A stretch of DNA of 64,000 nucleotides, from contig CACOQN010000003.1 in the NCBI GenBank assembly GCA_902629285.1, positions 49,619-113,618 on the forward strand. The letters run 5' to 3'. Within the stretch, counting starts at the first letter, position 1; each line of letters starts with the position of its first letter. This stretch comes from an uncultured Pelagibacteraceae bacterium. GTDB taxonomy: Bacteria > Pseudomonadota > Alphaproteobacteria > Pelagibacterales > Pelagibacteraceae. The notes beneath the pieces were generated by a model. The model made no database searches and was not told the origin of the DNA. It was given only the letters and a program-made list of their open reading frames with translations. Below are positions 30,662 to 62,264 of the stretch, one piece after another. The position numbers and the translations under genes were made by a program.

Positions 30662-30712
30662 AAATAATATTAGTCTTAATTTTACCCCAATTGTACTCTT
30701 ATTGTTATCAAA

Positions 30713-52390: not shown

Positions 52391-53035
52391 TTAATTTTTT
52401 TTTTTAATTTTTTTAATATTTATTAAAAAAGAGTCTTCGCTTGTTAAACTTTTTTTTTCTACATACTCCAATTTCCATTTTTTTTTTGAATTTTCAAAAA
52501 TTTTTTTTCCACTCTTCCCCATAAAAAAAATTAAATTTTTATATTTTGAAAAATTTTCATATACTAAATCTAAGACTACCGGCATTGGTTTAAATGCTCT
52601 AGACATTATTGTTCCTGTTTCTAAATTTTTTATTTCAAAAATATTTTTTTGAAAAATTTTTGTGTTTAAATTTAATTTTTTGGAAACTTCCTCTAAAAAA
52701 TGGCTTTTATGGTAACTTTTTTCATAAAGGTGCACATTCATATTATTTTTCATATTTTTCAGTATAATTGCTACGATAATCCCAGGCATACCACCCCCTG
52801 AACCTATATCAGTGGTTGTATTACTATTTAAGTCAATAAAATCAATAATTTGCGCTGAATCTATAATATGCCGATTAATTATAGCCTTTTTTGATGCTGT
52901 ATTTTGGCTAATTATGTTGAATTTTTTATTTTTTTCAAGAATCATGGATATATAGTTTTCAAAGTCCAAAAATGTTTCACGTGAAACATTTAAGTGATTG
53001 ATTCTAGAATAAGAATTTAAAATTTCTTTATCCAT
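52391..53035 (-). CDS. rsmG: 16S rRNA (guanine527-N7)-methyltransferase RsmG
   Basis: A 214-residue SAM-dependent methyltransferase (GidB) acting on G527 of 16S rRNA. Motif I is 'TTDIGSGGMPGIIVAIIL', preceded by 'RHIIDSAQIIDFI' and followed by 'SRAFKPMPVVL'. The N-terminal 'NVSRETFLDFENYI' is the peptide encoded across an embedded parS site. Its ATG overlaps the mnmG stop by one base. Confidence 0.96.
   Translation of the reverse strand: MDKEILNSYSRINHLNVSRETFLDFENYISMILEKNKKFNIISQNTASKKAIINRHIIDSAQIIDFIDLNSNTTTDIGSGGGMPGIIVAIILKNMKNNMNVHLYEKSYHKSHFLEEVSKKLNLNTKIFQKNIFEIKNLETGTIMSRAFKPMPVVLDLVYENFSKYKNLIFFMGKSGKKIFENSKKKWKLEYVEKKSLTSEDSFLINIKKIKKKN
52973..52988. other. parS: parS centromere site (perfect 16-mer)
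   Basis: TGTTTCACGTGAAACA is exactly the bacterial parS consensus, a 16 bp perfect palindrome. It lies in the 5' coding part of rsmG, about 0.6 kb from parA and 1.4 kb from parB, and about 8 kb from the candidate origin. I found no second copy in the window by eye. Confidence 0.95.
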
Positions 53036-60167: not shown

Positions 60168-61169
60168 TTAATAATCTTTTACTGTTTTTACTAAATATTC
60201 AAACATATTTGGATCCGTCTCCGGTAGTACCCCATGTCCCAAATTAAATATATATGGATGATCTTTAAAAATATTGAGATATTTTGAAGCTTCTTTTTTA
60301 ATTGTTTCTTTGTCAGTTAACAAAACTTTTGGGTCTAGTCCTCCTTGAACAGGAATTCTTATGGTTTTAACTGCTTCTTTAGGGTCTAAGTTATAATCAA
60401 TATTTATTGCGTCTGGATTAACAAATTCACAAAACTCCTTGTAATTTTTTATTCCTCTTGGAAAACATATAACTGGTACATTTAAAGACTTAACATAATT
60501 CACAAGGCTTAAAGTTGGTTTATAGATATAATCTGGTAAATCTTTTTTTTCTAAAAGACCTGCCCAACTATCAAAAATTTGAATTATATTCGCACCATTG
60601 TTGACTTGATTTTTTATGTGGATCTTTAAAAATTTATCTATGATTGATAACGTTTTATTTATCAAAACTTGGTTTTCAAAAAAATTCACTTTTAATTTAT
60701 TTTTTGGAGATTTTTGATTAATCATATAAACCAACAATGTCCATGGAGCACCAATGAATCCAATAGTATTTTTATTATTTAAAATTGGATTTGAACTTAC
60801 TTTTTTAATTGCTTTATAAACGTTATTTACTTTTTCTATAAAATCAGTTTCATCAATTTTTATTATCTCATCTAATTTTAATTGTCCCAACTTAGGGCCA
60901 AAATTTTTTTCAAACTCAACTTTTTGACCCAAACCATAAGGTAACATTAAAATGTCTGAAAAAATAATAGCAGCATCTAAATCAAATCTTTTCAAAGGTT
61001 GTAAAGTTATTTCGGACGATAAATCGTTATTCAAACACAAGTTAATAAAGTTTGGGTTATCTTTTCTAATTTGTCTAAATTCTGGCAGATATCTCCCGGC
61101 TTGTCTCATTATCCATATGGGATTAAAAGATGTGTTTTTTTTTATTATTACTTTATTTAAAGGTTTCAT
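60168..61169 (-). CDS. hemE: Uroporphyrinogen decarboxylase
   Basis: A 333-residue TIM-barrel decarboxylase turning uroporphyrinogen III into coproporphyrinogen III. The signature 'WIMRQAGRYLPEFRQIR' is N-terminal, 'AAIIFSDILMLPYGLGQ' carries the catalytic Asp, and 'NLGHGVLPETDPN' is C-terminal. It is the first gene of the hem operon, and its promoter must lie in the candidate origin region. The hemE-ppsR boundary marks the replication origin in several alphaproteobacteria. Confidence 0.97.
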   Translation of the reverse strand: MKPLNKVIIKKNTSFNPIWIMRQAGRYLPEFRQIRKDNPNFINLCLNNDLSSEITLQPLKRFDLDAAIIFSDILMLPYGLGQKVEFEKNFGPKLGQLKLDEIIKIDETDFIEKVNNVYKAIKKVSSNPILNNKNTIGFIGAPWTLLVYMINQKSPKNKLKVNFFENQVLINKTLSIIDKFLKIHIKNQVNNGANIIQIFDSWAGLLEKKDLPDYIYKPTLSLVNYVKSLNVPVICFPRGIKNYKEFCEFVNPDAINIDYNLDPKEAVKTIRIPVQGGLDPKVLLTDKETIKKEASKYLNIFKDHPYIFNLGHGVLPETDPNMFEYLVKTVKDY

Positions 61170-61436
61170 ATAAAAGCTTTTTTAATTATTGTAGTTGTAG
61201 TATATCCTGTGAATAAAGGTGATTAATTTTTATAAACATTATATTCACAGTTTCCAAACATCTTAAAGGATTAAAACCTTTTAAAATCAGGCTTTTTTAT
61301 TTAAATTGATTTTAGTGGATTGTTTTATCCTGCTTATTATTAATGTTAACAAATGATAGATTTTACAAGCTAAATTTTAAAAATTATAAATTGTTTATTC
61401 TGATTAAAATAATACAAATTTACTAACTATTTATTC
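61170..61436. other. oriC: Candidate chromosomal replication origin (hemE-ppsR intergenic region)
   Basis: This is the largest gene-free gap in the window (267 bp). It holds TGTGAATAA (61208-61216), the reverse complement of the DnaA box TTATTCACA, and ATATTCACA (61241-61249), one base off; the arms CTGTGAATA and TATTCACAG form a perfect 9 bp inverted repeat with a 26 bp spacer. The right half (61360-61430) is extremely AT-rich and could unwind. Caulobacter and Rickettsia origins lie between hemE and a ppsR-type gene. Genes on both sides point away from the gap. It must also contain hemE and ppsR promoters. Confidence 0.65.
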
Positions 61437-62264
61437 ATGACTAATACATACCAAATATATTTAATATCAGATTCGACCGGTGAAACCCTTGATAGAATTT
61501 TTTTAGCACTTAAAGCACAATTCTTAAATTTCGAATATAAAGTAAATTCATTTTCTTTTACTAGAACAGAAAATCAAATTTTAAAAATTCTTGATGAAGC
61601 AGAAAAAAATGTAAATTCAATAATCCTATACACTATTGTCGATAATAATTTAGCAAAATATTTGGCGAACAAAAGTGAAGATAAGAAAATTCCATGTTTT
61701 GGTGTTCTAGGAAATTTAATTTTAAATTTTTCAAAAATTTTAAACCAAAAAGCAACACACGAACCTAGTGGTCAACATATATTAAATGAAGAGTACTATA
61801 ATAGAATTGAAGCAATTCAATTTACAATGAATCATGATGATGGCAATTTAATACAAGAAGTTGATAAATCTGACATAATTCTTGTAGGTGTGAGTAGAAC
61901 AAGCAAAACTCCAACATCAATTTATCTGGCAAACAAAGGTTTCAAAACTTCAAATATACCTCTTGTAAATCAAAATTCATTGCCAGAAAAATTAAAACAA
62001 AATCCTCAAATGGTTTGTGTAGTAGGATTGACAACAGAACCCGAAAGGTTAGCAGATTTAAGAAAAAATAGAATGAATTCTTTAAAAGAAACTGAAAATA
62101 TAAAATATACAAATTTAGAGAATATAAAAAAAGAAGTTTTAAATGCAAAAAAAACCTTTCAGAAATATAAATGGCCACTTATAGATGTTACAAGGAAATC
62201 AGTTGAAGAAACAGCGGCATCTATAATTAAAATACACGAAATATATCTTAATAATGAAAAATAA
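61437..62264 (+). CDS. ppsR: Pyruvate, phosphate dikinase/PEP synthase regulatory protein (DUF299)
   Basis: A 275-residue bifunctional kinase/pyrophosphorylase of the DUF299 family. 'IYLISDSTGETLDRIFLALKAQF' is the N-terminal signature, 'DIILVGVSRTSKTPTSIYLANKG' the P-loop, and 'VVGLTTEPERLADLRKNRM' a further conserved stretch. It reversibly phosphorylates a Thr in PPDK or PEP synthase. It is the first gene right of the candidate origin, followed by maf-aroE-coaE as in Caulobacter. maf overlaps its end by 11 bp. Confidence 0.94.
   Translation: MTNTYQIYLISDSTGETLDRIFLALKAQFLNFEYKVNSFSFTRTENQILKILDEAEKNVNSIILYTIVDNNLAKYLANKSEDKKIPCFGVLGNLILNFSKILNQKATHEPSGQHILNEEYYNRIEAIQFTMNHDDGNLIQEVDKSDIILVGVSRTSKTPTSIYLANKGFKTSNIPLVNQNSLPEKLKQNPQMVCVVGLTTEPERLADLRKNRMNSLKETENIKYTNLENIKKEVLNAKKTFQKYKWPLIDVTRKSVEETAASIIKIHEIYLNNEK

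Follow-up and report, generated by a model that had tools for sequence, protein, structure and literature searches.

Our analysis revealed that the divergent intergenic region between hemE and ppsR in this SAR11 bacterium (positions 61170–61436, 267 bp) is, with a probability of nearly nine in ten, the origin of chromosome replication (oriC). Four independent tests, namely the GC skew corrected for coding, the density of DnaA boxes in the closed genome of a relative (G038), the symmetry of inversions, and the conservation of the boxes, place the origin at this gap. The sequence-only reading, made before any comparison with other genomes, had proposed the same location, and all four tests supported it. 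The position of the gap, its cluster of boxes, the row of DnaA-trios next to them, their spacing, and their conservation are read directly from the sequences. If the origin is known exactly, origin-to-terminus coverage ratios could reveal how fast SAR11 grows in the sea. In addition, the CtrA control that protects the Caulobacter origin has been described as missing from SAR11. With a defined 267-bp origin that carries a conserved putative opening module, both the growth estimate and the replication timing become directly testable.

The gap and the genes around it

The gap lies within the 64-kb window (the whole stretch of DNA that was analysed) and is flanked on the left by hemE, encoding uroporphyrinogen decarboxylase (60168–61169, minus strand), and on the right by ppsR of the COG1806/DUF299 type (61437–62264, plus strand). 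On the left, the ten genes spanning parB (50745) to hemE (61169) are all encoded on the minus strand; on the right, every gene from 61437 to the end of the window is encoded on the plus strand. Transcription is therefore directed away from the gap on either side, in keeping with the flip in gene polarity described from the sequence alone. This arrangement is highly constant: hemE and ppsR were divergent in all 107 relatives that have both genes, with a gap of 261–285 bp, mostly 266–268 bp. Among 35 other alphaproteobacterial genomes that have ppsR, a comparison of gene places found hemE directly beside it in 30. In a further family of the same order (f2), ppsR was undetected in twelve genomes (G148–G159).

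The gap is AT-rich, with an AT content of 0.805 versus 0.711 for the window. The AT-rich flank noted earlier can be assigned to the ppsR side. Here lies the least stable 60-bp stretch within the gap (61374–61433), which ranks 156 of 63940 in the window by nearest-neighbour stability and overlaps a conserved DnaA box at 61420. The partition genes that had been reported nearby were also confirmed. A perfect parS site, TGTTTCACGTGAAACA, is located at 52973–52988, inside the coding sequence of rsmG, and is adjoined by parA and parB, 8–10.5 kb from the gap. In the closed genome of G038, only one parS was found (with at most two mismatches), 7.3 kb from the gap, and in each of the four closed genomes the distance between the genomic parS and the gap is 7–19 kb. 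Neither a tRNA gene nor a match to Rfam was found in the window.

Corrected skew and inversion symmetry in closed genomes

The closest named relatives of the window are Pelagibacteraceae, which identifies it as SAR11. Its genome is a draft of 36 contigs (G000, contig C3), and the skew was judged in closed relatives. In G038 (1,437,930 bp), the minimum of the raw cumulative GC skew was found at 939,974, 29 kb from the gap, which lies at approximately 910.5 kb. Since the raw skew is dominated by gene orientation, G versus C at third codon positions (GC3) was fitted for the genes on each strand separately, with two change points in G038 and with one change point in arcs of approximately 0.4 Mb around the gap in G028, G005, and G044. 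The G038 fit placed the origin at 906 kb and the terminus at 104 kb; 910 kb was 1.2 log units from the best solution, and the gap itself was within 1.5. Thus, the skew minimum that had been proposed as a check did not fall at the gap in its raw form, while the coding-corrected fit brought the origin to it. For TA skew at third positions, the G038 fit lacked a usable signal. We rejected the raw cumulative skew as a locator because it is too blunt, with gene orientation putting minima at approximately 30 kb of the window as well as 29 kb off in G038. The former is a second local minimum near 30700, at divergent murJ-like and maeB-like genes whose listed open reading frames overlap at their starts, and it is likewise attributed to gene orientation.

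The corrected skew pooled over the four closed genomes had its peak at +5 to +10 kb, on the ppsR side of the gap, and at a distance of 65 kb to the left or right it had dropped by over 40 log units. At the gap itself, the pooled profile was 5.9 log units below its peak, which we counted against an exact placement at the gap. The single genomes had weak spots, as G028 was almost without skew signal and the peak of G044 lay at +41 kb, indicating that the skew of a single genome is precise to between a few and tens of kb.

Bacterial inversions are commonly symmetric about the origin. Between G005 and G028, 167 orthologous pairs were located on opposite sides of the gap in inverted order, and over all inverted pairs the sum of the signed distances from the gap (x + y) had a median of 8.2 kb, corresponding to an inversion centre approximately 4 kb from the gap. 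The genes adjacent to the gap have kept their place despite these inversions. Comparison of G005 with G038 or G044 gave a median of 12 kb and an inversion centre 6 kb from the gap.

Two other locations need to be weighed against these results. The pooled skew peak and the inversion centre, at +4 to +10 kb, would also suit an origin at another site within approximately 15 kb on the ppsR side. However, no box cluster comparable to that of the gap is present from 0 to +15 kb in G038, G044, or G005, skew arising from unequal gene content is not accurate to within a few kb, and the known origin location in the class is hemE/COG1806 (PMC1914354); a displaced origin of this kind is very improbable. 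The other candidate is dnaA, where the origin is found in many bacteria; in that case, the true origin would be approximately 64 kb away and the gap would be a conserved gene neighbourhood only. The dnaA gene lies 3 kb outside the window (G000:C3:46339), and the broad trough of the raw skew takes in its region. In contrast, the corrected skew lost 14.0, 24.6, 11.5, and 3.9 log units at dnaA in G038, G005, G044, and G028, respectively, compared with 4.5, 0.6, 4.6, and 3.9 at the gap. Moreover, dnaA switches sides of the gap between genera: g1 and g9 have it 61–65 kb off towards hemE, and in g5 and g7 it lies towards ppsR at a distance of approximately 71 kb (L206–L215). In addition, no box cluster near dnaA equals that of the gap in G038. 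An origin at dnaA is thus scarcely credible, and we favor the gap.

DnaA boxes and the trio row

We aligned 98 distinct orthologous gaps, weighted by relatedness (approximately 14 clusters), and scored 516 9-mer positions against TTATNMACA, allowing at most one mismatch. Six positions stood out, with weighted frequencies of 0.64–1.00 versus a mean of 0.013, and the next position reached 0.39. Together with a weaker seventh, these six conserved positions contradict the earlier expectation that a SAR11-type origin would have few DnaA boxes. The DnaA protein has retained the RDHTT signature in domain IV.

The box TTATTCACA (61208–61216, minus strand) is a perfect match to the consensus and is kept with at most one mismatch in a weighted 0.75 of the relatives; its G-T-G core at 61209–61211 and the A at 61213 are invariant. 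At a distance of 10 bp, a co-oriented sequence with two mismatches, TTAATCACC (61218–61226, minus strand), may be a weak tandem box. Its G at 61218 and A at 61222 are invariant, and the relatives have at least two mismatches to the box at this position. On the plus strand follow three DnaA-like boxes with an exact spacing of 11 bp: TTATAAACA (61230–61238; matching TTATNMACA; 0.69 with at most one mismatch, as for the weights below), ATATTCACA (61241–61249; one mismatch; 0.64), and TTCCAAACA (61252–61260; degenerate here; 0.78), the family consensus of the latter two being TTATTAACA. The most conserved position of all is a DnaA-like box on the minus strand, TTGTTAACA (61344–61352; family consensus TTATTAACA; 1.00). 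The ppsR-proximal box (61420–61428, plus strand; 0.91) is degenerate here, TTACTAACT, is TTATTAACA in most relatives, and is retained in most other genera.

Exact TTATNCACA boxes were not enriched in the window (3 versus 4.1 expected). The gap of G038 is the sole site in 1.44 Mb with six TTATNCACA matches (at most one mismatch) in 270 bp, and also the sole site with four exact TTATNMACA in 270 bp. For exact TTATNMACA, the gap was the top place in the 0.4-Mb arcs of G044, G028, and G005 as well. The window's own gap is somewhat poorer, with two exact TTATNMACA sites.

The sequence-only reading had relied on a perfect 9-bp inverted repeat containing two DnaA-type boxes, and this repeat is present as described at 61207–61250, with the arms CTGTGAATA (61207–61215) and TATTCACAG (61242–61250). 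As proof of an origin, however, it did not hold. Composition shuffles of the gap yielded a mean of 0.88 such 9-bp pairs (P = 0.43 for at least one), and its conservation among relatives, which had been suggested as a check, was poor, as all nine pairs were kept in only 25 of the 98 distinct relatives. Since the repeat is expected by chance and is seldom kept, we rejected it as evidence by itself.

Beside the box at 61208 is a row of DnaA-trios, 5'-TTG TAG TTG TAG TAT-3' (61189–61203, plus strand; box-proximal trio last), separated from it by a spacer of 4 nt (61204–61207). The relatives have (TAN)4 at 61192–61203, and most other genera have a spacer of this same length in the orthologous gap. 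T was invariant (weighted 1.00) at 61192, 61195, 61198, and 61201 and was followed by A (0.93, 0.67, 0.93, and 0.95, respectively) and then by a variable base. When the 13 invariant T columns were placed at random, the chance of four of them falling in steps of three was approximately 0.0008. With one sequence from each of nine genera, TA occupied 27 of 36 slots of the trio frame versus 2 and 4 in the other frames, a count lowered by the anchor of g6 being one register off.

A basal unwinding system consists of one or more DnaA boxes, a spacer, and trinucleotides 3'-GAT-5' with a conserved central A (PMC8287927, PMC10721633), and G is the preferred first base in Bacillus subtilis (PMC10721633). 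The first base is variable in the present row. From the box outward, the trios of the window are TAT, TAG, TTG, TAG, and TTG, the third and fifth having T for the middle A; the number of contiguous TAN trios is two in the window, four in G038, and three in G044, and the published search rule requires three (PMC8287927). A DnaA box with at most two mismatches within 16 bp of the trios is present, being the perfect box beyond the 4-nt spacer. We consider it likely, from the pattern of conserved bases, that the box and trios represent a basal unwinding system. A strict trio-plus-box pattern had 63 matches in 148 genomes, 33 of them just upstream of ppsR as counted from the listed matches, and was judged insufficient alone as a genome-wide origin finder. 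A trio-plus-box-like 22-mer, TAGTATTAGATGGTGTTGATAA, is identical in 12 g1 genomes away from ppsR (e.g., G099:C71:18244 and G125:C3:78348) and is possibly coding.

The motifs might also be explained if the gap contained only the divergent promoters of hemE and ppsR, with the conserved sequences serving as promoter elements, perhaps regulated by DnaA. Both promoters must sit in the gap, and a -10-like TAATAC precedes the ppsR-side box. In overall identity between G038 and G044, the gap ranks 17 of 23, which is ordinary among divergent gaps, and we therefore rejected exceptional overall conservation as evidence for an origin. However, a promoter explains neither the invariant T at every third base nor the densest box cluster of the chromosome, and it fails to account for the skew and the inversion centre. 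Genus g7 (G007, G015, and G027) is informative in this respect. In these genomes, hemE is far from ppsR and is represented only by a distant homolog (29–34 percent identity), and rho is now upstream of ppsR and borders the gap (L191, L197, and L200). Yet the trio-spacer-box element persists between rho and ppsR, as TTATTAG GTCA TGTTTATAA in L191 and TAGTATTATTAG GTAG CCTTAATAT in L200, indicating that the element is not simply a hemE promoter. We give the promoter-only explanation a very small chance and retain the origin as our interpretation of the gap.

Proposed initiation and comparison with known origins

From these elements, we infer how DnaA would bind, on which side the duplex would melt, and how the origin would fire in the cell. 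DnaA would bind the minus-strand box TTATTCACA at 61208–61216, perhaps along with the adjoining weak tandem box, and also the 11-bp-spaced plus-strand row at 61230, 61241, and 61252, while the boxes at 61344 and 61420 may help assembly. The DnaA oligomer would extend from the 61208 box over the 4-nt spacer onto the plus strand and capture the 5'-TAN-3' (= 3'-NAT-5') row at 61189–61203, opening the duplex on the hemE side. Helicases would then load, and replication would proceed bidirectionally, each fork moving in the direction in which the genes on its side are transcribed. With the location unchanged, opening could instead begin at the AT-rich ppsR side, which would act as an unwinding element like that of Escherichia coli; the least stable stretch (61374–61433) lies there and overlaps a conserved box. 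However, sequence conservation is lower in this AT-rich stretch, while the trios have been kept in register with the box. Opening at the ppsR side is therefore unlikely, and we favor the trios as the site of opening.

We found no paper on a SAR11 origin in the open literature, although Pelagibacter may already have a predicted origin in a publication or a database. The origins of Caulobacter and Rickettsia are located between hemE and COG1806, and that of Caulobacter has sites for DnaA, CtrA, and IHF (PMC1914354). The present gap resembles Cori of Caulobacter crescentus in its flanking genes, its AT-richness, and its several DnaA boxes (PMC1914354). In contrast, Cori is approximately 404 bp long versus 267 bp here, and its CtrA, IHF, and GANTC (CcrM) sites are absent from the window gap. 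CtrA sites (TTAA-N7-TTAA) were absent from the window gap and present in 22 of the 98 relatives, the IHF site WATCARNNNNTTR was absent from the window gap and present in 5 of the 98, and the window gap contained no GANTC. According to a survey, Pelagibacter has no ctrA ortholog (PMC2877005), and loss of the CtrA sites is therefore expected. Regulators of the OmpR type are present. The origin of Rickettsia prowazekii, between hemE and RP001, is similar in its genes, its AT content of approximately 82 percent, and the small reduced genome (PMC1914354); it is 384 bp long.

The putative opening module resembles the basal unwinding system of oriC in B. subtilis, sharing the box, a spacer of approximately 4 nt, and trinucleotides with a central A located 5' of the box complement, on the same strand and with the same polarity (PMC8287927, PMC10721633). 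It differs in that the second tandem box is weak here, the trio consensus is 3'-NAT-5' rather than 3'-GAT-5', and the window copy has only two contiguous TAN trios.

More tentatively, and with some doubt on our part, the gap may represent a minimal alphaproteobacterial origin of SAR11 in which control by CtrA, IHF, and CcrM has been lost. DnaA alone would then run the origin, using boxes of the relaxed form TTATNMACA (mostly TTATTAACA) together with 3'-NAT-5' as a variant of the trio, and initiation would be set almost only by the level and nucleotide state of DnaA. If true, this would bear on cells that are very abundant in the ocean. More firmly, the gap is very probably a stripped-down, minimal version of the Caulobacter/Rickettsia type of origin, apparently free of CtrA control. 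It is to this hemE/COG1806 location and to the DnaA-dependent kind of origin that we assign the gap, and not to the CtrA-controlled kind represented by Cori.
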